Source: Wenzhouxiangella sp. AB-CW3 (GTDB taxonomy: Bacteria; Pseudomonadota; Gammaproteobacteria; Xanthomonadales; Wenzhouxiangellaceae). From it: a DNA stretch of 64,000 bases. Of the stretch, positions 32,001 through 45,511 are shown piece by piece; the stretch's first letter is position 1, and each line of letters begins with the position of its first letter. The notes beneath the pieces were generated by a model that did not search any database, was not told the origin of the DNA, and saw nothing but the letters and a program-made list of their open reading frames with translations. The stretch is from the NCBI RefSeq assembly GCF_014725735.1, contig NZ_CP061368.1, positions 697,225 to 761,224 of the forward strand, given 5' to 3'. A program made the translations under genes and the position numbers.

Positions 32001-32044
32001 GGAGACACTCCGCCCACCAGATATCAGCTTGGGTTGGACAATGA
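20075..32044 (+). CDS. giant Sec-exported RHS/YD-repeat polymorphic toxin with adhesin-like head
   Basis: A 3,989-residue protein. Signal peptide 1-32; choice-of-anchor A domain about 56-310 (EGRLAAGGNVSINHYSI); a beta-rich module 317-466; two Ig/cadherin-like repeats 469-649; an Ig-like domain interrupted by VWA (MIDAS D742-x-S744-x-S746) and a CARDB-like module, about 650-1095; more Ig-like domains to about 1340; an FG-GAP/PQQ-like propeller 1360-1780 (DLDNSGRPEI, DLTGDGEPEL); CARDB 1800-1920; five Ig-like repeats 1936-2390; RHS entry domain about 2580-2830; YD repeats to about 3710; RHS core ending ADPVNNTDPSGE near 3828; a tip of about 160 residues. No PAAR or VgrG part is visible, so export by Sec and surface display, not T6SS, is inferred. 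The tip contains GHILHRG and a Trp/His-rich end, which I cannot assign. From about nt 30105 the DNA becomes less GC-rich and leaves the downstream tip family. The start at 20075 has a good ribosome site; an in-frame TTG at 20057 is less likely. Confidence 0.88.
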   Translation: MIGLREWFGSRAVLAWAGLLAALALVLAPAFGQEPVGSPQGEMDGLVASGQLPLMLDLGPARRYNGFFLEGFSAPSSDVEGRLAAGGNVSINHYSIAEKLQSVEPGIALLVGGDLHFPSGRVYHGDIVVGGSAAGLGASVRHGLGAEQAVTEFSELPFEFSAEFQRLEQTSQALAGLPANGTAQWQWGGLYLEGDCESPAQVFALDGQQVLSAHTFEVSCIPVGATVIFNIDGNHAGLTNMSLASLIPHRQQVLFNFHQAELLTLSGMGIEGSVLAPLAHVEQPQGVIDGTMIARSWDGPMQLNHRPFKGVGGGDACSLYPIALPFEDLDATGSGTEFQQLPRGTGPGNYSWLTWAGGSSAPTLANSLLPPGDSHTYVNPDDDTDWLLKPGDWVQGAPGAMNSQAVRDNLDALLDTEIVLPAWSETRGQGGNLDYRVADFVRVRLLDYRLPGNGWLSFEFLGFTHCYNQAPEAFDQQLETEMEVPLDIELTGDDPEGDELTFELVSEPEHGTLSGEPPNLEYQPDPGFAGSDSFDFIARDAYLESPPATITIEVIQTNQPPVAHPQSLEVESGEVLPITLTGEDPDGDELAFELVSWPEHGTLSGDAPDLVYQPDPGFVGTDQFDFFVDDGLDVSDPATITIQVIQPNRPPEIVSEPVTEALQGHPYQYDVEAIDPDPGDVVTYSLNRSPEAMTVGPDSGLIDWLPDSSYAGNIGGHNDHCYVSGAQDAETALAADVVFVIDESGSMRGEHDWISEFAFGLEAYLMAHDVGAGGTINEYGLIGYERVPRPLPVGGDEMGDLYELLEAADLLRTSGGREDGWMAMHHGLVEYPLRSDVSTNIILITDEGRDITDPDITYESILNDFQQANAILNAVVNARFECTDEEGERVEAMGMDANGTGYLPDGEGGYLTCSGPEATWGHTNTINTLEAYVDLALDTEGAAWDLFFLRGGGPDALSFARALNDIKVREIVEHFPPRALPDLSVDRLEWRDGEVETEISNRGQADTSAALEVQILANGVLVANEIVSPLAMGETAIIAVPFVPSEPESLELRAVVVSDPDEEECVTSNHQLAVPLVTVQATDQNGLYDRQSFSISVLPHNSPPEFVSEPVLAASVGARYVYQAEAVDPDAGDAVRYELIEGPPGMSIDAFGGLLSYLPNAAHVGTHAVVVRATDLAGTYTEQAFELEVAEDYQFPRFNLIEDQRVVIETPFELQTEVVADPMADLTYDVLMAPAGLEIDAETGLAQWQVAAHLAGQRVPVALHVVDQFGNFDLLIFDLLVDIPNEAPYFTSSPRLDAREGSSYSYNSRTDDPNYFDEHQWNLAHGPAGMTVDPDSGRVRWPGSAVSTTAPAGPSDINPFCLTREFESAVVEMREAWSWTSDVNRFTQPLVVPLFSDSSQSTPDLEAVQLVVGITWSGGGISDRAIHALDLDTGELYWSYADNAPDWGVSPAAAELDDSGTPTIVFVDSQHHLVAIDTFGQLKWISDQPVANPGASMNEAAIVIADLDNSGRPEILVGPSVFRHDGSLLWRFPDHGDWHSTALRASPMAADLSGDGRMEMVMHNEVRDADGGLLWKLPFDSDQSLRRAHFGIGDLTGDGEPELVVSARLSFDRVLLAVSNEGQLLWRNDSSAVRDISVPLVADFSRDGSKEVFLAGGSILLDGHGEMLWQRESGVSPGAYRNAIATDLNGDGWLEILLHEANSLKVLSGLHGFALHSIHSSQRTDRRGLVPALVWPEPFERPRLVAGGSQGLLVLQPAWGEWPTPLKQFTQIEFAAGQKRHDSLRIVQKPVTDQPTTNYLPDLHVESPSARLSDDGKRLDTVVRNRGTAPASGPVHVEFYRGAPDAGGELLAHRLIEASLQPGESVSIQVPGLSADDLDDEVFVLAYMDNDDAAECELGNNLASGVRVDLRVEDLGGLAALQTWLIGVSEGRIRPSFASTPPTSTTENEPLVYQAHAEDPNTGDVVRYQLEQGPRDAQLHPVTGELTWTPAWGQTGSFRFRIRARDLTGRSRIQTFDVEVSESPLPNDPPVFLSQPVTAAQLGFPYEYQVIAEDPNGLELTYRVVEGPEDMTIHPRTGLVTWIPQTEKPEPVPVTLQIEDERGATAEQAFTITVHAEANQPPEITSQPPITVDLGDTWIYQVEAFDPDGDPLEFLLLQAPDGAVMDETGLVQWTPHAEQLGASEFTIEVRDDRGGWVRQSFEVHVNDAAANNPPEILSTPPLEAVEGSLYSYQIEAVDPDGDTLEYQLIEAPSGASLDPADSLLTWIPGASQVGEAEFEIHVVDGNGGVAWQQFVVVVEPAPVANRPPIIHSTPPLTAKTGHLYRYAIDASDPDGDELTFNLAEGPAGMVLDPANGELEWQPDETGEQFVRIEVSDEEFTVAQEWHVEVLDGSVPLDLSLEITPSVADIGQTVEIRLVPEAAAGEVIAEVMVDEESVTVDSDLVARFVPSEPGEHMVVAAIDDGFEQADASGSFFVRDPDAEGGPVVSLATPDQGAEVTAPTQIIGTVQDDDLAGWTLAWAEAGTQNWTVLAEGTDPLSEAEIAKFDPTLLMNGQYRIALQAWDNQGQSSSDSREIQVAGAMKLGHFAITFEDATVPLSGIPITLTRTYDSRQRHMDLDFGFGWSVGYQDVRLHESRRVGLGWSQNEYSSGMFSTFCVEPNGDPIVTVRLPDDEVHRFKAKADPECQQLVPFVDVQIVFEPLPGTHSELEQLDHGWVRLINGNIAELDSPDSPIDPENYRLTLEDGTQLTIDQNFGLSELRDGDDNTLSFTDDGITHSSGVGIEFIRDSFDRITQVLLPDGEVLDYIYDAQGNLSAFADPLENVTEFTYLEGAEHYLEDIIDPRGVRAIRNEYDEDGRLVAQIDADGNRLEFDRDIEGRVETITDRNGNATVYIYDERGNVLSETNALGETTTRTYDEFGNELTRTDPLGHTWEMAYDNRGNQTEDTNPLGETTESAYNDRGLLTSQTAPDGTVVMSNQYDPNTGNLTVTADGLGHETEFIYDASGNLTHTIDAAGHETRNFYDGQGNLIGEIDPAGTETSYTHDAMGRVLTETVSWTDDDGIEHSHTTSHVYDAAGNRIETIDPHGAVTAFEYDEAGQKTAEIDPLGRRTEYEYDSRGNQVLIRHPDGSTETSEYDPEGNLIAETDRAGRTTKMVYDAAGRLIETILPDNTPDDDSDNPRRYSIYDAAGRLVEEVDERGNSTFYEHDAAGRNTRVIDALGNETTYEYDTRGQRTAMIDARGHRTEYQYDAAGRLVRTIFPNDTESTVAYDALGQKIAETDPAGRTTQFEYDERGNLTAVIDALDQRTEYSYDGQGNRIAQTDANDHTTMWTFDVLGRTLSRTLPLGQTETFGYDVAGQRIMKTDFNGETTQWDYDAAGRVVAMTRPDGTALTRTYTDDGQLATVMDGDEMTSYTYDARGRLTQVTYPDGQNIGYEYDHAGNRTAIITEGGSVAYGFDELNRLSTVTRDGNTVTHFYDEVGNRSRLEHANGLSSFYAYDDLNRLTEISHRDVEDQLIQRLQYTLGPAGHRNELIESSGRRVDYTYDGLYRLVTETVTDPLLGDRTTTYTYDAVGNRQSRLVECDPSPCTGEDLGEGLTTYTYDANDRLLEESGPAGMTQYSYDANGNQVEKIGPDGTTVLTYDAENRLTSATTPESTLAYTYDHNGIRQSQTVDGETTRFLVDPNRNYAQLIAELDGTGQIQSHYLHGDDLLAQANAQGTYTYLADGLGSVRMLADESGQITDQYVYEAFGNLEWSLGDTANIFQFAGEQYDNNLHLYYLRARFYDQNAGRFFAQDPYLGNIQSPFSLHRYIYGNADPVNNTDPSGEVTLIGVMRTVTLLGAFPVSFGSVDYALRRPHYYDFTDAVCRTDQFTGCTKEQVWVGLTYYPAPGRSSNGIEPIERGRDRSVLFGRWPVRHRRIDRGLTVWNITEEGHILHRGSVKRKVISTESGVSIRTIGEGEGRFAVTNIISGRQIWRHSAHQISAWVGQ
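28714..30105 (+). repeat. long direct repeat: YD block shared with 37421-38812
   Basis: This 1.39-kb stretch of the giant gene aligns with 37421-38812 at a constant offset of 8,707 bp at both ends, so the two are colinear with little or no net indel. Sampled differences are mainly third-position changes. Part of the same block (nt 38066-38630) recurs a third time at 42095-42661 with almost no differences. These are ready substrates for homologous recombination between the expressed head and the displaced tips. Confidence 0.85.
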
Positions 32045-32445
32045 AGTTGAAGCTATATTCTTGTAAGAAAGTTCATGAGCGGAACCTTTCGGCATTTTTT
32101 TTTGTGGCGATCCTTGCTTCGGTTCTTTATGCGTTGATATTTGCAATTGCTTCTGATTACTTCTTGGTTGTTCTTTATGTGTTTCCAGTTTCTGTATCAG
32201 TGATAACGATACTTATTTGGTTTCAATATCCTGGTATGCTTCTTGTGCTTAGGTATCTTAGGATAACGTCGGGCTTTACATTTTTTGTGTTTGGAGTCGT
32301 AGGGGCTATTTGGGGAATAGTGCTGTACATGACTATTGCTCATTTTCGGTTATCGGATTGGTTGTTGTATGTTCACTGTGGTATTGGAGTAGTCATTGGT
32401 GTAGCGTGCCTTGCTGTTCTGAAACGATCGAATGATGACGCTTGA
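32041..32445 (+). CDS. candidate membrane immunity protein of the main RHS tip
   Basis: A 134-residue protein with four predicted membrane helices (for example FFVAILASVLYALIF and FFVFGVVGAIWGIVLY). Its ATG overlaps the stop of the giant toxin gene as ATGA, so the two are translated together. A small gene directly following an RHS tip is the standard position of the cognate immunity gene, and a membrane immunity protein suggests that the tip acts on, or enters through, the inner membrane. Base composition is much more AT-rich than the housekeeping genes around, as usual for such pairs. No family was recognised. Confidence 0.7.
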   Translation: MKLKLYSCKKVHERNLSAFFFVAILASVLYALIFAIASDYFLVVLYVFPVSVSVITILIWFQYPGMLLVLRYLRITSGFTFFVFGVVGAIWGIVLYMTIAHFRLSDWLLYVHCGIGVVIGVACLAVLKRSNDDA

Positions 32446-32492
32446 TCCAACTGGAGCCAGCTCTTTCGGCAGATTAGTTTCGATGCAGGGTC

Positions 32493-34373
32493 AGGAGCCA
32501 CGATGGTCGTGATGGATTTGCCCGTGCCGACTATCCTGATCAAGGAAGGAGCGACCGCTGGATCGAGTACACCTGGGACGAGGCCGGCAACCGTACTGAG
32601 GTGCGCACCGACAACCAGCGCACCCGCTACAGCTTCGATGCGCTCAACCGGATGAGCACGGTGATCGCCTGCGCCAACGAGTCCTGCAGCGAGGGCGCGG
32701 AGACCGTCTACAACTACAACCCGGTCGGCAGCCTGCAATCGGTCGAACACGCCAACGCCACGGCCACCGAGTACCAGTACGACGAACTCAACCGCCTGAC
32801 CCTGCTCAGAACCTGGGATGCCCAGGGCACCCTGATCCAGCGCCAGCAGTTTCATCTGGGCGCTGCCGGGCACCGGGAAATGGTGGTCGAGGTCCCCGAA
32901 CGGGTCGTCGAGTACACCTACGATGCCCTCTACCGCCTGACCGAAGAAAAAGTCACCGACCCCAATGGCGACCGCACCACCACCTATACCTTCGATGCCA
33001 CCGGCAATCGTCTGAGCCGTGCGGTTTCTTGCGATCCGGCCTGCACGGGTGAAGTCGAAGCCGGCACCACCACGTACGTCTATGACGCCAATGATCGGCT
33101 GCTGGAAGAGTCTGGCCCGGACGGCACCACCATCTACACTTACGACGAAAATGGCAACACGACCAGAAAAACCGCCCCTGACGGCATCGTCGACTACCAC
33201 TACAACACCGACGACCGCCTGACCCGGGCGACGGGTGACCTGGAGTCAGCCGCCACTGAGGCGAGCTATACCTACGATGCGCATGGGATCCGACAGGGTC
33301 AGGTGGTTGATGGCGTTGAGGGGAGATTCCTGGTGGATCCGACCCACCAGTATGCCCAGGTGCTGGAGGAACTGGATGGGGCCGGGAACCCGGTGGCCCT
33401 GTATGTCGTTGGTCACGAGCGCATCAGTCAGACCCGCGCCGAAGGCCAGTTCACCTACCACGGCGATGGCCTCGGCAGCATCCGCCATCTGACCAATGAA
33501 GATGGTCTGGCAACCGACCGCTTCGTCTACGAAGCCTACGGCCTGCTCGAGCACCGAGAAGGCACCAGCCCCAACAACTTCCGCTACACCGGCGAACAGT
33601 ACGACCCGAATTTGGGTTTCTACTACCTGCGTGCCCGCTACTACAACCCGGCCACCGGCCGGTTCCCCACCATGGACACCTACCAGGGCCGTATCCACGA
33701 GCCCCAGACCCTGCACAAGTACCTGTATGTGCATGCGGATCCGGTGAATGGCACTGACCCCACCGGCCTCTTTATGAATACAACAGGATTGATGGTAGCG
33801 CAACAGGGTAGAACTACATTGGCGCTGCAGAGATTGTTCTCGTTGGCTGCTCGACCCCTGATAAGGCGAGCTGCAGTGGCGTCAGCCTTTGCTATGGTAG
33901 GAACTGCCGCCTTTATAAGCTCCCGACGATTGGAAGATGATCCAAAGTACCCACCTATGTTCCTTGTTGGAAACAATCATCCTGAAGTTAGGGCGCATAT
34001 CAAAGATGCGCTACTAAAGAAAGGAATTTCTTCAGTAGTACATAGAAAAGGGGACGAGCACGATCGTGGTTGGCTTCGCACATCTCTCGTGGCGGGTACA
34101 TGCGGTAAAGGTTTAACTGGCGTGGGGACAGGTAAGGATTGTGATGAGTTTCCGATGGCAACACACATAGAAGGAGGTAAGAAAAATTTCTTGAGAGGGG
34201 CGGTATCGGTGCGGGCTGTATCAGCTTCTCAGAACAGATCAGTTGGAGGTATGATTCCAGCGTTTCATGATACGTGTGGAATTGTTCCAGATGATCCTGG
34301 GCTTGATGGCGCATATGTTATGGGGATAACTGACGCGGCAACGCATTGGATCTGTGGGGCTGCAGGACGGTGA
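32493..34373 (+). CDS. orphan RHS tip 1 with NucA/NucB-type DNase domain (5'-truncated)
   Basis: YD homology starts in frame near 32493, only 48 bp after the preceding immunity gene, with no credible own start (first in-frame ATG at 32601). A 12-nt insertion near 32537 distinguishes its first YD unit from the other copies. YD repeats lead to an RHS core (GLGSIRHLTNE, then HADPVNGTDPTG) and a C-terminal domain with CDEFPMATHIEGG (Cys at codon 514 counted from 32601) and SQNRSVGG, the conserved motifs of NucA/NucB sporulation-type nucleases. A hydrophobic segment (AAVASAFAMVGTAAF) precedes it. Without the head it is presumably silent unless recombined or read through. A SUKH-like gene follows 11 bp later. 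Confidence 0.8.
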   Translation, partial: RSHDGRDGFARADYPDQGRSDRWIEYTWDEAGNRTEVRTDNQRTRYSFDALNRMSTVIACANESCSEGAETVYNYNPVGSLQSVEHANATATEYQYDELNRLTLLRTWDAQGTLIQRQQFHLGAAGHREMVVEVPERVVEYTYDALYRLTEEKVTDPNGDRTTTYTFDATGNRLSRAVSCDPACTGEVEAGTTTYVYDANDRLLEESGPDGTTIYTYDENGNTTRKTAPDGIVDYHYNTDDRLTRATGDLESAATEASYTYDAHGIRQGQVVDGVEGRFLVDPTHQYAQVLEELDGAGNPVALYVVGHERISQTRAEGQFTYHGDGLGSIRHLTNEDGLATDRFVYEAYGLLEHREGTSPNNFRYTGEQYDPNLGFYYLRARYYNPATGRFPTMDTYQGRIHEPQTLHKYLYVHADPVNGTDPTGLFMNTTGLMVAQQGRTTLALQRLFSLAARPLIRRAAVASAFAMVGTAAFISSRRLEDDPKYPPMFLVGNNHPEVRAHIKDALLKKGISSVVHRKGDEHDRGWLRTSLVAGTCGKGLTGVGTGKDCDEFPMATHIEGGKKNFLRGAVSVRAVSASQNRSVGGMIPAFHDTCGIVPDDPGLDGAYVMGITDAATHWICGAAGR

Positions 34374-34384
34374 GTGACTAAAGT

Positions 34385-34969
34385 ATGAAATTGGATGATT
34401 GGAAGGAATTTCTCGCGAAGTGGCAGAGCTCCCTGTATGCGCAGTATAAGAGTAAACAGAAGGCATGGGAGTATATGGGGCTACCAGATATTTCGACCTT
34501 GGAGGTCCAGGAACCAGATTTGGGCGGTGTTGATCAGATTATTGGTTCAGGAAGCATGACAAGCAAAAATGAGATTGTGCGTTTCTATAGAGTGACGAAT
34601 GGCTGGCCGCTATGGCTCGGTGAGTACTGTGTTTCCATATGTCAGGTTGCAAAGCTGGACCTTTTCCAGCATAGATCGCCAGGCTCGTTTGAAATTGCCG
34701 TTGAGAATGCAGCTGAACAGCGGATAGTTTCCTCAAATGATACGTTGTTGTCCGTGAGTGATTTCAGAGGTGCTCTTATGTTTAGCGAGCCGGTAGATGC
34801 AAGGGAAATTTTGCTTCTATTGCCTGATGGGGCCATTTGTTTCTATCAGTTCTCAAGCATGAATCTGTTCTCTGGTTTTGATGAGTTTATGCGAGAGATG
34901 TATGGTCGTGTTATCAGAGAAGTGGAAGAACTCATCCAAATTTACGAATCTGGATGGCGAAAGGAATAG
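34385..34969 (+). CDS. SUKH-like immunity protein 1 for the NucA/NucB tip
   Basis: A 194-residue acidic soluble protein with the SMI1/KNR4 (SUKH) style segment FYRVTNGWPLWLGE, common in immunity proteins of nuclease polymorphic toxins. It follows a NucA/NucB tip by 11 bp and is clearly related to the protein at 40937-41491, which follows the other NucA/NucB tip, for example in the shared VTNGWPL/VTDGWPL block. The pairing of related immunity with related toxin, twice, supports the assignment. Its last 16 codons overlap the first frame of the next orphan tip. Confidence 0.75.
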   Translation: MKLDDWKEFLAKWQSSLYAQYKSKQKAWEYMGLPDISTLEVQEPDLGGVDQIIGSGSMTSKNEIVRFYRVTNGWPLWLGEYCVSICQVAKLDLFQHRSPGSFEIAVENAAEQRIVSSNDTLLSVSDFRGALMFSEPVDAREILLLLPDGAICFYQFSSMNLFSGFDEFMREMYGRVIREVEELIQIYESGWRKE

Positions 34970-36966
34970 CTATTCCTGAAGCCTCTACGACGCTCCGCCT
35001 CACCTTGATGGGCTTCAAGGGTCAGACGGTCGAGTTTTTCTACGACCAACTCAGCCGCCCGATCCGCAGCGAGTATCCCGGTGAGGTGGTGGTCGAGACC
35101 CGCTACACCCCCAGCGGCCAGGTCTGGGAGATCGAAGTGACCTGCACCCCGGCGGCTTGCGCCGAGGCCGGCAAGGATCCGGGCATCACCCGCCACCACT
35201 ACGATGTCCGCGACCGCCTGACCCACATCGATTACCCCGACGGGCGCTGGATCGAGTATGCCTGGGACGAGGCCGGCAACCGCACCGAAGTGCGCACCCA
35301 GAATCAGCGCACGCGCTACACCTACGATGCCTTGAACCGCATGCACACCGTCACGGCCTGCGGCAACGAAGATTGCAGTGTGGGTGAGACCACCACCTAC
35401 CACTACAACGCCGTCGGCAGCCGTAGCGGAGTCGAGCATGCCAACGGCACGGCCACCGAGTATCAGTACGACGAACTCAACCGCCTGACCCTGCTCAGAA
35501 CATGGAATGCCCAGGGCAGCCTGATCCAGCGCCAGCAGTTTCATCTGGGTGCGGCCGGGCATCGCGAGATGGTGGTCGAAGTCCCCGAACGGGTCGTCGA
35601 GTACACCTACGATGCCCTCTACAGGCTTACGGAAGAAAAGGTTACCGATCCCAACGGCGACCGCACCACCACCTATACCTTCGATGCCACCGGCAATCGT
35701 CTGAGCCGTGCGGTTTCTTGCGATCCGGCCTGCACGGGCGAAGTCGAAGCCGGCACCACCACGTACGTCTATGACGCCAATGATCGGCTGTTGGAAGAGT
35801 CTGGCCCGGAAGGCACTACCGACTACAGCTACGACGAAAACGGCAACACGACCAGAAAAACCGCCCCTGACGGCATCGTCGACTACCACTACAACACCGA
35901 CGACCGCCTGACCCGGGCGACGGGTCATCTGGAGTCAGCCGCCACCGAGGCGAGCTATACCTACGATGCGCATGGGATCCGACAGAGTCAGGTAGCCGAC
36001 GGCGTCGTGAGCCGGTTCCTGGTCGATCCCACCCATGAGCACGCCCAGGTGCTGGAAGAGCTGGACGGAGCGGGCAATCCAACCGCCCTGTACGTGATCG
36101 GGCACGAGCGCATCAGCCAGGAGCGGGCAGAGGGGTATTTCACGTACCACGGCGACGGCCTCGGCAGCATCCGGCAATTGACCGACGAGAACGGGCTGGA
36201 AACCGACCGGTTCGTTTACGAGGCCTACGGCCTGCTCGAACATCGCGAAGGCACCATTCCGAACTCCTTCCGCTACACCGGCGAACAATACGACCCCAAC
36301 CTGGGCTTCTACTACCTGCGTGCCCGCTACTACAATCCGGCGACGGGAAGGTTCCCGACCATGGACACCTACCAGGGCCGAATTCACGAGCCCCAGACCC
36401 TGCACAAATACCTGTATGTACATGCGGATCCGGTGAACAATATCGATCCGAGTGGGGAGGTTGCATCAAATGCGGTAATTGGCCATATAACAGTGCTCGC
36501 AACCATTTCGGGCGTTGCGCATGGCGGTTATCAAATCTACCAAGGAAACTATGCCCGAGGTGCTGCAGAGGTTACCGTTTCACTTTTAGGCGGAGGAGTA
36601 GTCAAGCTCGTTTGGGTCCCAGCGAGAGCTATTCGTATGAATTATGTTCGCTTGGTAGGGGAAATGCGAGCTAGGCAGAACGCAATGTCAATCGCTGGAA
36701 AGTCTTCGGAGGAAATTGCAAGGACATTGGTGATTATGCGAAACTCGGTAAAGCTAGAAGCCCGTTCAGACACTGTTCGTGAGCTAGGATGGACTGGAAG
36801 GAGGTTGGTCGAGTGGGCAGAAAGGAGGAATGTGAGGAAGTATGGAAACTCACTAGGACCTACGGCTGAGGAACTGGTTACCAGTGGTAAATCTATGAGC
36901 CAGATCGTTGAGGAAAGCGCGCTTAGAACAAATCAGATCGTGAATTACTTGTTCGCGGTCTTCTGA
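34954..36966 (+). CDS. orphan RHS tip 2 with unassigned helical toxin-like domain (5'-truncated)
   Basis: YD homology begins near 35010, 41 bp after the end of the SUKH gene, and continues gap-free (offset 3,863 bp to the copy at 38877-40300) through the RHS core to HADPVNNIDPSGE. The last 165 or so residues are unique: a hydrophobic stretch (VTVSLLGGGVVKLVWV), then a charged helical domain with MRARQNAMSIAGKSSEEIA and KYGNSLGPTAEELV. This looks like a recurring polymorphic-toxin tip domain, but I cannot name its activity. Its stop overlaps the next small gene (TGATG). It lacks a plausible start and secretion signal. Confidence 0.72.
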   Translation: MAKGIAIPEASTTLRLTLMGFKGQTVEFFYDQLSRPIRSEYPGEVVVETRYTPSGQVWEIEVTCTPAACAEAGKDPGITRHHYDVRDRLTHIDYPDGRWIEYAWDEAGNRTEVRTQNQRTRYTYDALNRMHTVTACGNEDCSVGETTTYHYNAVGSRSGVEHANGTATEYQYDELNRLTLLRTWNAQGSLIQRQQFHLGAAGHREMVVEVPERVVEYTYDALYRLTEEKVTDPNGDRTTTYTFDATGNRLSRAVSCDPACTGEVEAGTTTYVYDANDRLLEESGPEGTTDYSYDENGNTTRKTAPDGIVDYHYNTDDRLTRATGHLESAATEASYTYDAHGIRQSQVADGVVSRFLVDPTHEHAQVLEELDGAGNPTALYVIGHERISQERAEGYFTYHGDGLGSIRQLTDENGLETDRFVYEAYGLLEHREGTIPNSFRYTGEQYDPNLGFYYLRARYYNPATGRFPTMDTYQGRIHEPQTLHKYLYVHADPVNNIDPSGEVASNAVIGHITVLATISGVAHGGYQIYQGNYARGAAEVTVSLLGGGVVKLVWVPARAIRMNYVRLVGEMRARQNAMSIAGKSSEEIARTLVIMRNSVKLEARSDTVRELGWTGRRLVEWAERRNVRKYGNSLGPTAEELVTSGKSMSQIVEESALRTNQIVNYLFAVF

Positions 36967-37397
36967 TGTCTAAAGAACTGACACTTCTTTGTGCTGATGA
37001 TCGAACTTATGGTGCAATGATGAATCTACGCACTGGGCAATTTGATGATCCAAAACCCATGGATTTAGCGTTGGATGAATGTGATGGTGAGTATAAGAAG
37101 TGTCTGATTGGTGGGTTGATTGCTCTTTTCAGGCTAGATGGTGAATGGTTTATTCAGGTTGGCAAGTTTCGTTGGCCTCTTGGGTTGCATGAGTTACATA
37201 TATCGCAATCCCGGTTTGGAGTTTTGCAGTTTGTTAACATAAGTTGCGGTTCGTTCAGTAAGACCTTCGTGGACACAAGATTTCAGGAATTCGCATTCAG
37301 CAAAATGGATCCAACTTATGACCAAATTGATGACTGGATGAGTGATTTCTTTGGGCGAATGGTTTTCCTGCACGAAAGAGCTCTCGGGGCACGGTAA
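36966..37397 (+). CDS. candidate immunity protein of orphan tip 2
   Basis: A 143-residue soluble, acidic protein of unknown family beginning MSKELTLLCADDRTYGAMM. It has alternating hydrophobic/aromatic strands (GEWFIQVGKFRWPLG) and no membrane segment. Its start codon shares one base with the toxin stop (TGATG), so it is co-translated with the tip. The immunity role is inferred from position and AT-rich composition. YD homology restarts 24 bp after its stop. Confidence 0.65.
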   Translation: MSKELTLLCADDRTYGAMMNLRTGQFDDPKPMDLALDECDGEYKKCLIGGLIALFRLDGEWFIQVGKFRWPLGLHELHISQSRFGVLQFVNISCGSFSKTFVDTRFQEFAFSKMDPTYDQIDDWMSDFFGRMVFLHERALGAR

Positions 37398-37406
37398 TCC
37401 TGATTA

Positions 37407-40400
37407 TTGATTGGCTCCGACGAGACCCTTACCGACCGCAACGGCAACGCCACCGTCTACATCTATGACGAGCGCGGCAACGTCTTGAGCGAGACCAATG
37501 CCCTGGGCGAGACTACCACCCGGACCTATGATGAGTTCGGCAACGAGCTGACCCGCACCGACCCGCTGGGGCACACCTGGGAAATGGCCTACGACGAGCG
37601 CGGCAACCAGACCGAAGAGACCAACCCGCTGGGCGAGACCACCGAGTCGGCCTACAACGATCGTGGCCTGCTCACCAGCCAGACCGCGCCCGACGGCACG
37701 GTGGTGATGAGCAACCAGTACGACCCCAATACCGGCAACCTGACGGTCACCGCTGATGGTCTGGGTCACCAGACCGAGTTTATCTATGACGCCAGCGGCA
37801 ACCTCACCCGCACCATCGATGCCGCCGGCCACGAGACCCGCAACTTCTACGACGGGCAGGGCAACCTCGTTGGCGAGATCGACCCGGCCGGCACCGAGAC
37901 CACCTACACCCACGACACCATGGGCCGGGTCCTGACCGAGACGGTGAGCTGGACCGATGCCGACGGCATCGAACACAGCGCGACCACCAGCCATGTCTAC
38001 GACGCCGCCGGCAACCGCATCCAGACCACCGATGCACTGGGCGCGGTCAGCCAGTTCGAGTACGACGAGGCCGGCCAGAGGACCGCCGAGATCGACCCGC
38101 TGGGCCGACGCACCGAGTACGAGTATGACAGCCGCGGCAACCAGGTACTGATCCGCCATCCCGACGGCAGCACCGAGACCAGCGAGTACGACCCCGAAGG
38201 CAATTTGATCGCCGAGACCGACCGCGCCGGTCGCACCACGAAGATGGTCTATGACGCCGCCGGCCGCCTGATCGAGACCATCCTGCCCGATGACACCCCG
38301 GACGATGACAGCGACAACCCGCGCCGCTACTCCATCCATGACGCGGCCGGAAGACGGGTCGAGGAAGTCGACGAGCGCGGCAACAGCACCTTCTACGAGC
38401 ACGACGCGGCTGGCCGCAACACCAAGGTCATTGATGCGCTCGGCAACGAGACCACCTACGAGTACGACAGCCGTGGCCAGCGCACAGCCATGACCGATGC
38501 AAGAGGTCATCGAACCGAGTACGTCTACGACCAGGCCGGTCGCCTGATCAGGACCCTTCTGCCCAACGGCACCGAGACCACGGTGACCTACGACGCCCTG
38601 GGCCAGAAGATCGCCGAGATCGACCCGGCCGGCCGCACCACGCAGTTCGAGTACGACGAGCGCGGCCATCTCGTGGCAGTCATCGACGCCCTGGGCCAGC
38701 GCACCGAGTATGCCTACGACGGCCAGGGCAACCGGATTGCCCAGACCGATGCCAACGGCCACACCACGATGTGGACATTCGACGTGCTCGGTCGAACCCT
38801 GTCGCGTACCCTGCCCGAGGGCCAGACCGAGACTTTCCAGTATGACCTGGCCGGTCAGCGCACCGCTCATACCGACTTCAAGGGCCAGACGGTCGAGTTT
38901 TTCTACGACGAACTCAGCCGCCCGATCCCCACCGAGTATCCCGCTGACGTGGTCGTCGAGACCCGCTACACCGCCAGCGGCCAGGTCTGGGAGATCGAAG
39001 TGACCTGCACCCCGGCGGCTTGCGCCGAGGCCGGCAAGGACCCGGGCATCACCAGCCACCACTTCGACGAGAGAGATCGGCTGACCCGTATCGACTATCC
39101 AGACAGCCGCTGGATCGAGTACGCCTGGGACGAGGCCGGCAATCGCACCGAAGTACGCACCCAGAACGAGCGCACCCGCTATACTTTCGATGCGCTCAAC
39201 CGCATGAGTACGGTCATGGCCTGCGCCAACGAGTCCTGCAGCGAGGGCGCGGAGACCGTCTACAACTACAACCCGGTCGGCAGCCTGCAATCGGTCGAAC
39301 ACGCCAACGCCACGGCCACCGACTACCAGTACGACGAACTCAACCGCCTGACCCTGCTGAGAACCTGGGATGCCACCGGCCAACTCATCCAGCGCCAGCA
39401 GTTTCACCTGGGTGCGGCCGGACATAGAGAGATGGTGGTCGAGATCCCCCAGCGGGTGGTGGAGTACAGCTACGACGCCCTCTACAGGCTGACAGAGGAG
39501 AAGGTCACCGACCCCAACGGCGACCGCACCACCAGCTACAGCTTCGATGCCACCGGCAATCGTTTGAGTCGGGTGGTTTCATGCGATCCGGCCTGCACCG
39601 GCGAAGTCGAGGCGGGCACGACCACCTACGTCTACGACGCCAACGACCGTCTGCTGGAAGAAACTGGCCCGACCGGTAACACCGTCTACACCTACGACGC
39701 CAACGGCAACACCACCCGGAAAACCTCACCGGACGGCATTGTCGATTACGACTACAACGCCGATGATCGCCTGACCCGGGCCACCGGCGCTATGGAATCG
39801 ACCGCGACCGAGACTGCCTACACCTACGACGCCCACGGCAGCCGCCAGCGTCAGACGGCAGATGGCATCACCAGCCGTTTCCTGGTCGATCCGACCCACG
39901 AGCATGCCCAGGTGCTGGAAGAGCTGGACGGAGCGGGTAACCCAATCGCCCTGTACGTGATCGGGCACGAACGCATCAGCCAGGAGCGTGCAGAAGGAGT
40001 ATTCAACTACCACGGCGACGGATTGGGCAGCATCCGGCATCTGACCGACGAGACCGGGCTGGAAACCGACCGGTTCGTTTACGAGGCCTACGGCCTGCTG
40101 GAGCACCGTGAAGGTGCCACCCCCAACACCTTCCGCTACACCGGCGAACAATACGACCCCAACCTGGGCTTCTACTACCTGCGTGCCCGCTACTACAACC
40201 CTGAAACGGGGCGGTTCCCCACCATGGACACCTACCAGGGCCGCATCCACGAGCCCCAGACCCTGCACAAGTACCTGTATGTGCATGCGGATCCGGTGAA
40301 CAACACTGATCCGAGTGGTTTGATGGCGTTGGCAGAAGCAAGTGCAGGATTTGCCGTAAGGACTAACTTGCGTACTATGGCATTGCCTTCGTTTGCCTTG

Positions 40401-40913
40401 ACAAGGCGAGCTGCGCTGGCATCAGCTTTTGCTGCAGTGGGGACTGCCACCTTCATGACATCAAGAAGACTCGAAGAGGACACGAAATTTCCTCCTATCT
40501 TCCTGGTTGGTAGTAATCATCCAGATGTCAGAAATCACATTCAAAGCGCCCATCTGGAAAGGGGGATCAAGCCGGTCGTCAATCTGATCAGGCCGCCGCA
40601 CAGTCGGAGATGGCTAAGAGGCGGATTGGCGCGTGGAGTTTGTGGTCCTGGCCTTACTGGTGCAGGAACGGGTATGGATTGTGATGAGTTTCCGATGGCA
40701 ACACATCTTCAAGGAGGTCGTGAAAACTTCTTGGCTGGAAGGGTTTCACTCAAGGCAGTGCCGCTCTCTCAAAATCGTTCTGTCGGCCAAATGGTGGGAC
40801 AATTTCATTCAGTCTGCAATATTGAGGCCAATACACCTGGCCTCAGAAGTGCATACGTAATGGGGACTACCGAGTCGACTACTCATTTCATTTGCGGTGT
40901 TAATCGCCGGTAG
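37407..40913 (+). CDS. orphan RHS tip 3, longest copy, with second NucA/NucB-type DNase domain
   Basis: Homology to the giant gene starts at 37421 and stays colinear for 1.39 kb. It then continues in the tip family shared with the other orphans, to the core (GLGSIRHLTDE, HADPVNNTDPSG) and a nuclease domain with CDEFPMATHLQGG (Cys at codon 1092) and SQNRSVGQ. The domain is a diverged paralogue of that in orphan tip 1, also preceded by a short hydrophobic segment (AALASAFAAVGTATF). The only start available is a TTG at the junction, so this is a displaced C-terminal part, not an independent gene. It may be the tip once attached to the head, since it shares the head's repeats further upstream than any other copy. 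Confidence 0.8.
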   Translation: MIGSDETLTDRNGNATVYIYDERGNVLSETNALGETTTRTYDEFGNELTRTDPLGHTWEMAYDERGNQTEETNPLGETTESAYNDRGLLTSQTAPDGTVVMSNQYDPNTGNLTVTADGLGHQTEFIYDASGNLTRTIDAAGHETRNFYDGQGNLVGEIDPAGTETTYTHDTMGRVLTETVSWTDADGIEHSATTSHVYDAAGNRIQTTDALGAVSQFEYDEAGQRTAEIDPLGRRTEYEYDSRGNQVLIRHPDGSTETSEYDPEGNLIAETDRAGRTTKMVYDAAGRLIETILPDDTPDDDSDNPRRYSIHDAAGRRVEEVDERGNSTFYEHDAAGRNTKVIDALGNETTYEYDSRGQRTAMTDARGHRTEYVYDQAGRLIRTLLPNGTETTVTYDALGQKIAEIDPAGRTTQFEYDERGHLVAVIDALGQRTEYAYDGQGNRIAQTDANGHTTMWTFDVLGRTLSRTLPEGQTETFQYDLAGQRTAHTDFKGQTVEFFYDELSRPIPTEYPADVVVETRYTASGQVWEIEVTCTPAACAEAGKDPGITSHHFDERDRLTRIDYPDSRWIEYAWDEAGNRTEVRTQNERTRYTFDALNRMSTVMACANESCSEGAETVYNYNPVGSLQSVEHANATATDYQYDELNRLTLLRTWDATGQLIQRQQFHLGAAGHREMVVEIPQRVVEYSYDALYRLTEEKVTDPNGDRTTSYSFDATGNRLSRVVSCDPACTGEVEAGTTTYVYDANDRLLEETGPTGNTVYTYDANGNTTRKTSPDGIVDYDYNADDRLTRATGAMESTATETAYTYDAHGSRQRQTADGITSRFLVDPTHEHAQVLEELDGAGNPIALYVIGHERISQERAEGVFNYHGDGLGSIRHLTDETGLETDRFVYEAYGLLEHREGATPNTFRYTGEQYDPNLGFYYLRARYYNPETGRFPTMDTYQGRIHEPQTLHKYLYVHADPVNNTDPSGLMALAEASAGFAVRTNLRTMALPSFALTRRAALASAFAAVGTATFMTSRRLEEDTKFPPIFLVGSNHPDVRNHIQSAHLERGIKPVVNLIRPPHSRRWLRGGLARGVCGPGLTGAGTGMDCDEFPMATHLQGGRENFLAGRVSLKAVPLSQNRSVGQMVGQFHSVCNIEANTPGLRSAYVMGTTESTTHFICGVNRR

Positions 40914-40936
40914 ATCTCATTGCGGAGTGCTAAGGT

Positions 40937-41491
40937 ATGAATTCCAATGAATGGAGGATTTTTCTCGAATCGTGGGAGGCCAAGCTCAGAACAGAGTTTA
41001 CTCGGCACAGAGATATATGGGATCAGCTAGGTCTGCCGGATCTAGCTGAGTTCGAGTTCTTTGTTCCTGTTCATGACAAGCCCGCTCTACCCAGAAGTGC
41101 TGCTGCTAGAAAGGGGGCCGAGGAGTTACTAACGTTCTACTCTGTTACTGACGGTTGGCCGCTTCTCATAGGAGAGGATTTGGTTGAAATTTCCCCAATA
41201 AAGGAAATTGATGCGTTCCGGGAGATTGGTGGCGAGAATTTCGATATTGCTGCTGCCAATGCTCCTATGGACCTCGACATAGACCAAGAGAAGAACCTTT
41301 TGAGTGCCTCAGAAATTTCAAGTGCCATATTGATCAGTCGCCCGGTCATTGCACGTGAATTGCTGCTGTGGCTTGAGTCGGGTGAAGTTTGTCTGTATTT
41401 GTTTGAAGACGTTATGCGCTTTGATAGTCTAATTGGCTTCCTAAATTTCCATTTGGAATGGACGTTGCGGGACGTTCGTACGTCTATATAG
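40937..41491 (+). CDS. SUKH-like immunity protein 2 for the second NucA/NucB tip
   Basis: A 184-residue soluble protein homologous to the one at 34385-34969 (similar N-terminal WRIFLESWEAKL, shared FYSVTDGWPL motif and C-terminal layout) but clearly diverged. It lies 23 bp after the toxin stop and has a GGAG ribosome site. Divergence in parallel with its toxin is what is expected if each immunity protein protects mainly against its own nuclease variant. Confidence 0.75.
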   Translation: MNSNEWRIFLESWEAKLRTEFTRHRDIWDQLGLPDLAEFEFFVPVHDKPALPRSAAARKGAEELLTFYSVTDGWPLLIGEDLVEISPIKEIDAFREIGGENFDIAAANAPMDLDIDQEKNLLSASEISSAILISRPVIARELLLWLESGEVCLYLFEDVMRFDSLIGFLNFHLEWTLRDVRTSI

Positions 41492-41575
41492 CATGAGGCG
41501 CTTGGTGACATAGCATGGGTTACAAAAACGGCTGAAGTTTGTGATGACTAATCGGGTACGCCCTGAGTCAAGTAA

Positions 41576-41700
41576 TTCCCTGCGACCCGGCCTGCACGGT
41601 GAGGTCGTGGCGGACACCACCATCTGCACCTATGACGAATTCGGCAATGAGCTGATGCGCACCAATCCGCTGGACCACACCTGGGAGACAGCTTACGGGA
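41576..41700 (+). pseudogene. chimeric YD-repeat scrap
   Basis: About 60 bp resembling the repeat encoding CDPACTGEVEAGTTTYVYD (near 39587) is fused directly to about 60 bp resembling the repeat encoding EFGNELTRTDPLGHTWE (near 37530). These lie some 2 kb apart in the intact copy. Both pieces carry changes. It begins 85 bp after the SUKH gene and ends just before the next small gene, so it is what remains of a deleted tip cassette. Confidence 0.7.
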
Positions 41701-41706
41701 TCCCTA

Positions 41707-42051
41707 ATGATTAAAGTAGCGATAACGGTATCGGACGGTTTCGATACAGATGGAAGCGCCATTGAAGTTGGCTCTTCTTCATTCCTTTCTAAGCTGGATG
41801 AAGGGGGTCATTCCTCCGAATTCGAGTATTCTGGTGACATGGATGGTGCGTTGCCTTTCCATCTAAGTGTTGCTGGCACTTTTAAGGATCTAGGTGATGC
41901 CTTCAGCGGATTGTATTTCGTTCACATTGGAGGGCGCCAGATCCTGAGCTGTGGAGGCAGGTTTACGAATGTGCCGTTGGCCTCAACCATCTTGGTAGGC
42001 GATACTGAAACAAGCGAACTCAGTGTCTCGGTTCATGTATGGCAAGTCTAA
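41707..42051 (+). CDS. orphan immunity-like small protein
   Basis: A 114-residue soluble protein of unknown family beginning MIKVAITVSDGFDTDG, rich in beta-strand pattern. It sits exactly where an immunity gene would in this array, between a YD scrap and the next YD block (44 bp after its stop), with the same AT-rich composition as the other immunity genes, but no toxin domain precedes it. It may protect against a tip that has been lost here. The assignment rests on context only. Confidence 0.5.
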   Translation: MIKVAITVSDGFDTDGSAIEVGSSSFLSKLDEGGHSSEFEYSGDMDGALPFHLSVAGTFKDLGDAFSGLYFVHIGGRQILSCGGRFTNVPLASTILVGDTETSELSVSVHVWQV

Positions 42052-42094
42052 AGCGCCACACTCTCCTGCCAAGGTCGCCGGATTGCCTGGACAG

Positions 42095-42661
42095 AACGAG
42101 GCCGGCCAGATGACCGCCGAGATCGACCCGCTGGGCCGACGCACCGAGTACGAGTACGACAGCCGCGGCAACCAGGTACTGATCCGCCATCCCGACGGCA
42201 GCACCGAGACCAGCGAGTACGACCCCGAAGGCAATTTGATCGCCGAGACCGACCGCGCCGGTCGCACCACGAAGATGGTCTATGACGCCGCCGGCCGCCT
42301 GATCGAGACCATCCTGCCCGATGACACCCCGGACGATGACAGCGACAACCCGCGCCGCTACTCCATCCATGACGCGGCCGGAAGACGGGTCGAGGAAGTC
42401 GACGAGCGCGGCAACAGCACCTTCTACGAGCACGACGCGGCCGGCCGCAACACCAGGGTCATCGACGCGCTCGGCAACGAGACCACCTACGAGTACGACA
42501 GCCGTGGCCAGCGCACCGCCATGACCGATGCAAGAGGTCATCGAACCGAGTACGTCTACGACCAGGCCGGTCGCCTGATCAGGACCCTTCTGCCCAACGG
42601 CACCGAGACCACGGTGACCTACGACGCCCTGGGCCAGAAGATCGCCGAGACCGACCCGGCC
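42095..42661 (+). pseudogene. 5' part of decayed RHS cassette, interrupted by IS element
   Basis: YD-repeat coding sequence aligned gap-free to 38064-38630 (offset 4,031 bp) with very few differences, so a recent copy or gene conversion. The frame stops shortly after the IS insertion point. It continues at 44313 beyond the element. Confidence 0.85.
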
Positions 42662-42730
42662 CCCCCTCTGTCAGGATAGTTGTCGTCTCCTCTAAAATAG
42701 TCTCCAAGAGGGGGCGGACAGGAGCTGACA

Positions 42731-43255
42731 GTGAAGTATTCAGAAGAACGCAGAAAATCAGTGCTGGCCAAATTGTGCCCACCACATAATCGAACGGTCC
42801 GAGAAGTCGCCGCTGAGGAAGGCATTTCTGAGCCGACGGTGTACTTGTGGCGCAAGCAGGCTCGGGAGCGCGGAGAGCTGTACCCCGATGCCGGATCTGA
42901 CGCCCAGGGCTGGAGTGCTCGGGACAAGTTCGCGGCCGTGATTGAAACGGCTTCGATGAACGAGTCTGAGCGCTCGGAATACTGCCGCAAGCGCGGCCTG
43001 TATCCTGAGCAGCTGGCTGCTTGGCGTCGGGCCTGCGAGCAGGCCAACGACTGGGCCGAGGAACGCACCGCCAGCCAAGTGAAGGCTGACCGGGAACAAC
43101 GCCGGAAGATGCGCGAACTCGAGCGCGATCTGGCACGCAAGGAAAAGGCCCTGGCGGAGACGGCTGCCTTGCTTACCTTGTCAAAAAAAGCCCGGGCGAT
43201 CTGGGGGACGGAGAGGACGAATGATCAGCACCCCGGATCGCCAGAAAGCTGTTGA
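42731..43255 (+). CDS. IS3-family transposase OrfA
   Basis: A 174-residue DNA-binding subunit with a helix-turn-helix near residues 20-42 (REVAAEEGISEPTVYLWRKQ) and a coiled-coil-prone charged C-terminal half (REQRRKMRELERDLARKEK). It starts with GTG behind an AGGAG site. The end reads AIWGTERTNDQ, whereas one additional G in the G-run at 43203-43207 would give WGDGEDE and a TGA overlapping the orfB start. OrfA may therefore have lost a base. The usual -1 frameshift at the A7 run just upstream would not reach orfB in the present sequence. Confidence 0.88.
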   Translation: MKYSEERRKSVLAKLCPPHNRTVREVAAEEGISEPTVYLWRKQARERGELYPDAGSDAQGWSARDKFAAVIETASMNESERSEYCRKRGLYPEQLAAWRRACEQANDWAEERTASQVKADREQRRKMRELERDLARKEKALAETAALLTLSKKARAIWGTERTNDQHPGSPESC

Positions 43256-44276
43256 GCTGATCGACGAGGCCAGAACCGCTGGCGCCCGTCTCAGGCCCGC
43301 CTGCCAGGTGCTGGGCATCACGGCACGCACTTATCAGCGCTGGACGGCTGATGGCGGCGTGCGCGCCGACAAACGGCCTGAGGCAGTGCGCCCGTTGCCT
43401 TCTCACGCGCTCAAGCCTGAAGAACGGCAAGCGATTGTAACGGTCTGCAACGAGCCCGAGCACGCTTCCATGCCGCCGGGCCAGATCGTGCCGAAGTTGG
43501 CCGACGAGGGCCGCTACCTGGCCTCTGAGTCGAGCTTTTACCGCGTACTGAATGACGAGGACCAGCAGCACCATCGCGGTCGTGCCCGCAAGCCTGCAGC
43601 GGCCCGGCCGCCAGCGACGCACTGTGCCGATGCGCCCAACACCGTTTGGTGTTGGGACATCACCTGGTTGCCGGCCGATATCCGTGGGCGCTTCTTCTTC
43701 CTGTACCTGATCATGGATCTGTTCAGCCGCAAGATCGTAGGCTGGGAAGTGCATGATAGCGAGAGTGCCGTGCTGTCCAGTGAGCTGGTGCAGCAGACGG
43801 TCTGGCGGGAAGGCTGCGTCGATCAACCGCTGGTCCTCCATGGTGATAACGGCAGCCCGATCAAAGGTCAGACCGTCCAGGTCATGCTCGGCAAGCTGGG
43901 TATCACGGCCTCGTTCAGCCGACCGCGGGTCAGTGATGACAATGCCTTCGTCGAATCGTTGTTCCGAACCTGCAAGTATGTGCCGGACTTCCCGAAGACT
44001 GGCTTTGCCTCGCTGGAAGCGGCACGCGAGTGGGTCGCGCGCTTTGTCGAGTGGTACAACCATCAGCACAAGCATCGCGGGATCAACTACGTCACCCCGC
44101 ACCAGCGCCACACTGGACAGGACATTGAGATCCTGGCCAAACGCCATGCCGTCTATCAAGCGGCGCGGGACAAGCATCCACAGCGCTGGAGTGGGGATAC
44201 CCGCAACTGGTCTCCGGCAGGAGCCGTGTGGTTGAACCCGGAAAAGGAAAAGCAGCCGGAAAGTCAGGCTGCATGA
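43221..44276 (+). CDS. IS3-family transposase OrfB (DDE integrase domain)
   Basis: A 351-residue transposase with an N-terminal HTH-type region (LGITARTYQRW) and an rve-type catalytic core. The acidic triad is D146 (WDITWLP), D209 (HGDNGSP) and E245 (FVESLFRT), with the exact D-35-E spacing of the IS3 family. It has its own ATG and a GGAG/AGGA ribosome site and overlaps OrfA by 35 bp in another frame. The catalytic domain looks intact. Confidence 0.92.
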   Translation: MISTPDRQKAVELIDEARTAGARLRPACQVLGITARTYQRWTADGGVRADKRPEAVRPLPSHALKPEERQAIVTVCNEPEHASMPPGQIVPKLADEGRYLASESSFYRVLNDEDQQHHRGRARKPAAARPPATHCADAPNTVWCWDITWLPADIRGRFFFLYLIMDLFSRKIVGWEVHDSESAVLSSELVQQTVWREGCVDQPLVLHGDNGSPIKGQTVQVMLGKLGITASFSRPRVSDDNAFVESLFRTCKYVPDFPKTGFASLEAAREWVARFVEWYNHQHKHRGINYVTPHQRHTGQDIEILAKRHAVYQAARDKHPQRWSGDTRNWSPAGAVWLNPEKEKQPESQAA

Positions 44277-44312
44277 GTATGGAAAAGGCGACTTCTATCT
44301 TGACAACCACCG

Positions 44313-45010
44313 GGCCGGCCGCACCACGCAATTCGAGTACGACCAACGCGGCAACCTCACCGCCGTAATCGATGCCCTGGGCCAGCGCACCGAGTACGCC
44401 TACGACGGTCTGGGCAACCGGATTGCCCAGACCGATGCCAACGGCCACAGCACTACTTGGACATTCGACGTGCTGGGCCGAACCCTGACGCGCACCCTGC
44501 CCGAGGGCCAGACCGAGACTTTCCAGTATGACCTGGCCGGTCAGCGCACTGCTCATACCGACTTCAAGGGCCAGACGGTCGAGTTTTTCTACGACGAACT
44601 CAGCCGCCCGATCCGCACCGAGTATTCAAACGATGTGGTGGTAAACACCCGCTACACCCCCAGCGGCCAGGTCTGGGAGATCGAAGTGACCTGCACCCCG
44701 GCGGCTTGCGCCGAGGCCGGCAAGGACCCGGGCATCACCAGCCACCACTACGACGAGAGAGATCGGCTGACCCGCATCGACTATCCAGACAACCGCTGGA
44801 TCGAGTACGCCTGGGACGAGGCCGGCAACCGCATTGAGGTGCGCACCGACAACCAGCGCACGCGCTACAGCTACGATGCGCTCAACCGCAAGCACACCGT
44901 CACCGCCTGCGCCAACGAGTCCTGCAGCGAGGGCGCGGAGACCGTCTACAACTACAACCCGGTCGGCAGCCTGCAATCGGTCGAACACGCCAACGCCACG
45001 GCCACCGAGG
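44313..45010 (+). pseudogene. 3' part of the IS-split RHS cassette, truncated before the core
   Basis: YD coding sequence resumes with RTTQFEYDQRGN and runs through the CTPAACAEAG and CANESCSEGAETVYNY repeats, matching the other tips, then stops abruptly at 45010 in the middle of an NATATE repeat. No RHS core, toxin or immunity gene follows, so this is a dead end marking the right boundary of the RHS array. Confidence 0.85.
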
Positions 45011-45416
45011 CCGTCGCCACTGCCTGGATTGCTGCCCGGAGTCAGGCCAATGAAAGTGTTGGAAGTAAAGGTCTGACGTGGCGCGTAAGGCCAGAGGCGG
45101 ATGAAATGCTGGTTGTAGCGTTCGTAGGGCTGATCAAAGGTCAGTCCCATGATGCTGGCATCGGGTGAGCTGGTGTTCAGGAACAGCTCGCGCAGAATCG
45201 GGGTCTCTCCCGGGGCTGCCATCAGGACTGAAGGACGGTTTGTGTTGAGACTAAGGCATCTGCCGGCAACTGCCAGCTCTCGCTCTCGGACCATGCCGAA
45301 TGGCTCAATGCAAGTAACATCGCGGCAAACACGGCATGCACAATGCGGTTGCTCCGGCCAGTCCTGGCTTGAGTCGGTCTGATTCGGGGTGAAGCCAGGT
45401 TCCAGTTGCCGTGCAT
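45011..45416 (-). pseudogene. 5' fragment of a frameshifted secreted-protein gene
   Basis: On the minus strand, the frame starting at 45416 has a signal peptide (IVHAVFAAMLLALSHSAWSE) and stops at 45222. A second frame with gene-like codon use continues from about 45230 (MAAPGETPILRELFLNTSSP, QPYERYNQHFIRLWPY) to the array junction at 45010. A one-base shift near 45222-45240 would join them. The gene appears cut off by the RHS array. Family not recognised. Confidence 0.45.
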
Positions 45417-45511
45417 GTCGGGTATCCTCTGCTTGTTGTCGTCCCGGCATGCATTCGGGCATGCCGGGCGGGAAATTTTCCGAAGCCTACCCCAATTTAC
45501 TGATCATCGTC

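Follow-up and report, generated by a model that had tools for sequence, protein, structure and literature searches.

Orphan toxin tips behind a giant Rhs head gene in Wenzhouxiangella sp. AB-CW3, with a probable replacement of the head's expressed end

What does a row of truncated toxin genes behind a single complete one record? The question is raised by a 64-kb stretch of DNA from Wenzhouxiangella sp. AB-CW3 (here called the window, i.e., the whole stretch analyzed; the genome is a single contig of 3,844,697 bases). In it, one complete Rhs gene, the head, is followed on the same strand by orphan units, i.e., 5'-truncated Rhs fragments with toxin-like C-terminal tips and small genes of the immunity type. 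A preliminary description proposed that tips had been replaced repeatedly at the head, that each old tip had been pushed downstream with its immunity gene, and that the result was a layered record and a reservoir for switching. The arrangement itself was confirmed, and its interpretation as a whole was partly supported. The 3' half of the head's repeat core, its tip, and its immunity-type gene differ from those on the same head in a relative (referred to as G016), while core of the G016 type survives in the window as three orphans. Judging from the sequence, this Rhs polymorphic-toxin locus very probably took shape through C-terminal displacement.

Under displacement, one complete head with a Sec-like start would be made and exported, and new tips with their immunity genes would enter by recombination in or beside the repeat core. 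The former tip would be severed from its start and moved downstream, possibly via a circular intermediate, and its immunity gene would be retained. The small genes would be immunity genes that are still expressed, and G016 would show the older state.

Head gene and orphan units

The head (positions 20057 to 32044, plus strand; identified as an open reading frame [ORF] with domain matches) encodes a 3,995-amino-acid (aa) Rhs protein when counted from the first in-frame start. The likely ATG lies at 20075, and a hydrophobic signal-like stretch occupies residues 13 to 31 counted from there. Its Pfam matches comprise ice-binding-like adhesive, Ig, cadherin-like, and DUF6531 domains and Rhs repeats, after which comes the C-terminal tip. 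The solved structures similar to the core were Rhs proteins and teneurins; PADLOC gave no match to the head, and Rfam gave nothing in the window at gathering scores. Repeat comparison divides the core at approximately 30178, which we call point X. The 5' part (28714 to 30178) is common to the head and orphan unit 3 (89.5% identity), and the 3' half-core (30179 to 31552), which was probably replaced, is approximately 50 to 72% identical to unit 3 depending on the position of the sliding window. A 163-aa tip without a Pfam match follows (31553 to 32044), and the ATG of the head's immunity-type gene (32041 to 32445) overlaps the toxin stop. The protein encoded by this gene has four hydrophobic stretches, and the immunity-type proteins of the orphans are unlike it. 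These stretches hint that the head toxin may act on membranes.

The orphan units also lie on the plus strand. Unit 1 (32554 to 34373) consists of an old-type core fragment, starting at 32554, and a NucA/NucB-like tip, and it is followed by immunity-type gene 1 (34385 to 34969). The core of unit 2 (35013 to 36966; core, 35013 to 36455) starts at the equivalent of point X, and its tip, which like the head tip had no convincing family match, is followed by immunity-type gene 2 (36966 to 37397). Unit 3 (37421 to 40913) is the longest fragment, with a core (37421 to 40318) that includes the 1,465 bp common to the head, a NucA/NucB-like tip, and immunity-type gene 3 (40937 to 41491). The longest start-to-stop frames are 590 aa (unit 1), 670 aa (unit 2), and 1,168 aa (unit 3). 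Tips 1 and 3 matched DNase_NucA_NucB (PF14040; E values of 7e-6 and 1.8e-5; 26.9 and 25.6 bits versus a cut-off of 23.8) and are predicted to be NucA/NucB DNase toxins; tip 3 had no solved-structure match. No Pfam or NCBIfam family was matched by the immunity-type genes at an E value of 0.1. Their starts lie at −4, +11, −1, and +23 bp relative to the toxin stops (head and units 1 to 3, respectively). Thus, the three 5'-truncated tips with small immunity-type genes that had been described were all located, as were two decayed units (see below).

Regarding the spacings at which core likeness had been said to resume after successive immunity-type genes (48, 41, 24, 85, and 44 bp), we measured 108, 43, 23, 112, and 44 bp to the first matched base. 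The first and fourth are longer than described, with weaker likeness visible earlier by eye, and no common motif was seen by eye in the linkers between immunity-type genes and the next core.

Core pieces have a G+C content of 62 to 67% (54.9% in the head's 3' half-core), and tips and immunity-type genes have one of 43 to 49%. GC-poor tips against a GC-rich core, and a complete head followed by dissociated fragments of core and tip, are features of displacement loci. The orphan cores matched each other and the head's 5' core at 82 to 99% over 0.2 to 1.5 kb, and units 1 to 3 are 84 to 87% identical core to core. The head's 3' half-core matched the orphans at 65 to 69% only, in pieces found by repeat comparison (pieces shorter than approximately 150 bp were left out of the window and G016 comparisons, and those of 100 bp or less at the second locus described below).

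Probable replacement of the head's expressed end

G016 is a metagenome-assembled genome of the Wenzhouxiangellaceae, from the same genus as the host, and carries the same head on a 62,387-base contig. Its head gave one continuous match to unit 3, spanning 37421 to 40301 (79.9%). The window's head matched unit 3 from 28714 to 30178 (37421 to 38885 in unit 3), after which the two diverge, and its match to the G016 head ends at 30126, save for one 69% piece further on. Sliding identity between head and unit 3 was 0.79 to 0.98, dropping to 0.50 to 0.72 past approximately 38855 in unit 3, and that between unit 3 and G016 was maintained at 0.72 to 0.91 up to the tip. Given that the G016 core is colinear with the orphans and that the window's head is not after approximately 30178, the expressed end of the head was most likely replaced, with old-type ends surviving as orphans. 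The proposal of tip replacement with the old end kept downstream is upheld in this respect, and a tree of 20 cores agrees: units 1 to 3 and the G016 head form one clade (100/100), and the half-core of the window's head falls outside it. The attached tip and immunity gene of G016 matched none of those in the window (E limit, 0.01). The attached end (i.e., half-core, tip, and immunity gene) is therefore not the same in all relatives, as seen in one relative with this head. The simplest reading of these sequences would be that the end was replaced once, on the lineage of the window; provided that G016 preserves the older state, comparing the two species points to a tip change there.

An orphan core also starts in G016, approximately 50 bp behind its own immunity-type gene, and is cut by the contig end. 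This first orphan (13269 to 13500 of the reversed head stretch) and unit 1 are mutually closest (84%), with core starts approximately 24 bp apart and differing linkers. They may be one inherited orphan. A decayed scrap of old-type core with stops was seen in G016 on a contig other than that of the head (C9:12411-13060).

Other sequence collections were searched as well. Contigs searched with the first 1,000 aa of the head yielded 22 candidate stretches, none of which was confirmed. With an orphan core as the query, 10 loci were obtained from 31 candidate stretches, and the G016 contig alone was close (78%; next, 41%). No relative was found in a plasmid collection with the head as the megablast query or among viral contigs with the orphan core as the query.

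Several points weigh against C-terminal displacement here. A full-length match to the first 1,100 aa of the head was found in G016 only (65%; 60 relatives searched), G016 may not be the closest relative, and its head contig ends just inside the first orphan. The surroundings of the two heads differ (an 11.5-kb upstream flank in G016 is unmatched in the window), and a transfer of the whole locus is therefore possible. The window's orphan tips were found on this same head in no relative. In the core tree, the half-core of the head branches from an open fork together with cores from other families, some branches are long, and 4 of 17 inner branches have full support. A single clean insertion does not account for the start of unit 1, which lies approximately 230 bp past point X. 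The predicted folds of tip 3 (with tip 1; predicted local distance difference test score [pLDDT], 35.0) and of the head tip (pLDDT, 30.5) were too poor to search with. Finally, the ratio of nonsynonymous to synonymous divergence (dN/dS) among the orphan cores is 0.12 to 0.15, with no stop in 400 codons, which counts in favor of displacement, but a ratio below 1 may date from the time when the tips were attached.

The units could also have arisen by tandem duplication or unequal crossing-over within the locus, the copies then diverging and decaying without any tip from outside. The similarity of the three orphan cores is what duplication would leave, as are the likenesses between tips 1 and 3 (56 to 59%) and between immunity-type genes 1 and 3 (32%), and one decayed piece (unit 4a) was copied from unit 3 recently (synonymous divergence [dS], 0.04). 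However, the head tip, tip 2, and tip 3 are mutually unrelated at an E value of 0.01, as are their immunity-type genes, and the head's half-core stands outside the orphan clade. Furthermore, the dS among orphan cores (0.52 to 0.64) nearly equals that between them and G016 (0.62 to 0.75), with 0.33 between head and unit 3. The tip 3 type is also present, with a related immunity gene, in another family: in G085, it lies in a 3,338-aa frame (49% identity), behind which comes a gene with 35% and 30% identity to immunity-type genes 1 and 3. We regard duplication within the locus as highly unlikely.

Tip 3 was matched in 8 of the 398 genomes of the order, its own included, and a search of the flanks of the six further tip 3 loci tested found no gene like immunity-type genes 1 and 3. 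The head tip was matched in 10 of the 398 (own genome included; some matches short or broken), with relatives at 29 to 34% in five other genomes with loci. Tip 2 was found in its own genome only (1 of 398).

Likely order of events, tract exchange, and decay

Under C-terminal displacement, unit 3 would likely have been displaced first, because its core and the head form a direct repeat at an offset of 8,707 bp. Such a repeat is the footprint expected when a circle enters by a single crossover, though not proof of it, and unequal crossing-over leaves the same. The core of unit 2 starts at the equivalent of 38876 in unit 3, within approximately 10 bp of the position at which the head leaves unit 3 (38885). 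The parts of unit 3 matched by the head (to 30178) and by unit 2 (from 35013) therefore abut, and the block from 30179 to 35012 may have entered at one point. On this order, a block with the present half-core, the head tip, and unit 1 would have entered, after the displacement of unit 3, at point X of a head then bearing tip 2. We estimate the chance meeting of two junctions within 10 bp in approximately 2.9 kb at approximately 1% for a single pair, or a few per cent when all pairs are counted, and the coincidence is suggestive only.

Beyond unit 3, all on the plus strand, come a scrap of Rhs core (41604 to 41711), an orphan small gene that is immunity-like by position only (41707 to 42051), and a decayed unit 4, which is split in two by an insertion sequence (IS) element. 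The left piece (4a; 42096 to 42661) is 98.6% identical to unit 3. The IS element (42669 to 44305, ends read by eye) has transposase frames at 42701 to 43252 (HTH_Tnp_1) and 43083 to 44273 (rve), and the right piece (4b; 44309 to 45009) ends in midcore without a tip. The far end had been described as the most decayed part of the locus. The scrap, the orphan gene, the IS element, and the truncation at 45009 bear this out, but unit 4a is the youngest-looking copy of all. The record is thus not a clean clock, and age does not simply rise with distance.

The orphan cores have also traded tracts. Their long identity runs at variable sites were reached by none of 2,000 permutations for either units 1 and 3 or units 1 and 2, and by 26 of 2,000 for units 2 and 3. 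The identity runs of pairs with G016 were ordinary (123, 324, and 1,773 of 2,000 permutations). By this measure the orphan cores are mosaics of each other, which, together with the closeness of units 3 and 4a, speaks against the clean layering by age that had been proposed.

A store for switching, as in pilin or surface-antigen cassettes, would have its orphan tips regularly copied into the head. The mosaic cores suit such a store, and unit 3 and the head are in the same frame across their shared 1,465 bp, with a longest identical run of 68 bp. A 744-bp exact run between head and orphan occurs at a second Rhs locus of the genome, and in evolved Salmonella 522 bp at 95% was held to serve, according to the cited passage (PMC3967940). 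At the present locus, however, the longest identical runs with the head are 65 bp in unit 4a, 19 bp in unit 4b, 16 bp in unit 2, and 14 bp in unit 1. Given these short runs in units 1 and 2, direct loading by homologous recombination could be open to unit 3 only, and it would delete what lies between, i.e., the head's immunity gene and units 1 and 2. Recombining sequence common to stored copies and expressed gene, as in an antigenic-variation store, was found for unit 3 only, and the general reservoir of the preliminary description was not borne out. Jackson et al. likewise state in the passage cited that rhs is not truly analogous to antigenic variation (PMC2935791). A regularly used switching store is unlikely.

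Tentatively, the last tip change may have attached a foreign half-core midway along the Rhs core (point X), where homology is poor. With such a join, two of the three stored tips would have lost their sequence link to the head, and a store once open to switching would have become an immunity bank. Joins between different cores would also let tips cross the barrier between Rhs clades.

Finally, the orphans could be mere fossils, i.e., useless pseudogenes retained by chance. Two units are decayed and one of them is broken by the IS element, and neither a signal nor a good start was seen on the tips. That the orphan tips lack a secretion signal, as first described, holds, in that no hydrophobic signal-like stretch was found in any orphan frame. 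The lack of a start is a weaker point: the best Shine-Dalgarno match among the orphan candidate starts examined was 4/6 with poor spacing, the head's ATG also has 4/6 (spacing, 7), making this a weak test, and unit 2 has an in-frame ATG at 34954 that overlaps the end of the preceding immunity-type gene. Independent promoters were not indicated either, as promoter-like and terminator-like sites between 30000 and 45600 were in no excess over shuffled sequences. Against the fossil explanation, three long frames and their small genes have stayed open despite the dS of 0.52 to 0.64 among the orphan cores, and we consider it rather unlikely.

Genomic setting and comparison with known systems

The locus separates an aconitase-family gene (16480 to 19077) from prpF (ORF, 45389 to 46684; both by Pfam), and presumably a glutathione-transferase-like gene also lies between them. 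Twelve other genus genomes have a prpF match, and in five of them the aconitase gene stands just before prpF (26 bp apart in four and 179 bp in G026, by aligned parts). It was not found within the 1.5 kb or less examined upstream of prpF in the other seven, G016 included. The locus therefore likely, though not certainly, splits an aconitase-prpF pair. The Rhs core-end family occurs in 13 of 30 genus genomes, with seven copies in the host. Among 10 genomes examined by frame lengths only, giant heads with shorter same-strand frames nearby were seen in G069 (4,494 aa; 772, 275, and 1,258 aa) and G099 (4,389 aa; 676 aa), and the arrangement is therefore not confined to the genus.

The second Rhs locus of the same genome (2524 to 2538 kb; G000:C1:2521000-2540500) has a head with a 1,330-aa frame, a start that is signal-like by eye, and three orphan core fragments. 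Exact runs of 744, 459, and 93 bp are common to its head and orphans. This is the ordinary same-core pattern and a better place to look for switching, and the presence of such a second head with orphans counts in favor of displacement. Transposase frames of the IS200-like type (Y1_Tnp; one above and two just under the Pfam cut-off) adjoin its orphan units. Such frames recall REP-associated transposases. Directly upstream of its head lies a 4,254-aa frame that has a signal-like start and is rich in glycine at its end.

Type VI Rhs effectors offer one possible comparison. The 14 Pfam families matched by the head do not include PAAR, and the type VI sheath protein VipB (PF05943) had no match in the genome (profile search of 14 genomes; the control was matched in E. 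coli only). As far as these profiles tell, the head is not a type VI PAAR-Rhs effector. Rhs proteins of the WapA type are exported by means of a Sec signal and carry a C-terminal toxin. The head resembles them in its predicted signal-led export and C-terminal toxin and differs in its Gram-negative host and its other N-terminal domains. WapA/WapI is named in the literature on Rhs orphans (PMC3967940).

Wenzhouxiangella sp. AB-CW3 preys on Gram-positive bacteria (PMC7691419), and its Rhs loci are candidate weapons. In the text of the genome paper as available, the word "rhs" does not occur, and section 19, on toxins and secretion, names no such loci (PMC7691419). Among the papers listed in a literature search, with subscription journals mostly outside its scope, none dealt with Rhs arrays in Wenzhouxiangella.

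Displacement as such is already in print (Jackson 2009; Poole 2011; Koskiniemi 2014), and the comparisons below refer to the cited passages of these and related papers. The C-terminal displacement model, including a circular intermediate, was put forward for Rhs loci of Enterobacteriaceae (Jackson et al. 2009; PMC2935791). The present locus resembles those in its complete head, in the GC-poor dissociated tips that follow together with core fragments of varying length, and in an old tip probably shunted downstream by a new one. Unlike those, in which attached and dissociated cores within a locus are said to form one clade and always to be identical, it has an attached 3' half-core outside the orphan clade, and its head is giant with a Sec-like start. 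The same-clade regularity (which is not a definition) holds here among the orphans and upstream of point X and fails for the attached 3' half-core.

Orphan modules, and recombination between them and the head, are known from Poole 2011 (PMC3150448), Koskiniemi 2014 (PMC3967940), and Steele 2017 (PMC5727410). The window's units resemble the cdiA-CT/cdiI orphans of contact-dependent inhibition (CDI) and the rhs-CT/rhsI orphans in being pairs usually without starts, in having IS-broken members, and in keeping the immunity gene (PMC3150448, PMC3967940). Function was proven by experiment there and is read from sequence here, and direct switching would be open to one of three tips here. Recombination deletes the intervening modules, a cost named by Poole et al. 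(PMC3150448), and prior duplication of the locus was proposed as a way round it (PMC3150448, PMC3967940). The Rhs loci of Snodgrassella (PMC5727410) likewise have a 5' head, then truncated Rhs genes accompanied by immunity genes, and finally fragments that lack tips; unlike here, their heads are type VI PAAR proteins, and many of their orphans are transcribed. The mafB cassettes of Neisseria (PMC4287609) likewise have a head and downstream C-terminal cassettes with immunity genes, some without a start codon; the head protein is different, with no evidence of homology according to Jackson et al. (PMC2935791).

Set beside these systems, the locus widens the known range of C-terminal displacement, to which it adds giant Rhs heads that have a Sec-like start, the Wenzhouxiangellaceae, and a genome in which no type VI sheath gene was found. 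The join between different cores raises the question of how strict the need for identity is in tip exchange. Poole et al. describe one CDI orphan without significant identity to the head gene beyond the VENN point (PMC3150448), and a mismatched core is therefore not without precedent. We conclude that the locus is real and of a known kind, with the foreign half-core on the expressed head as its one uncommon feature.

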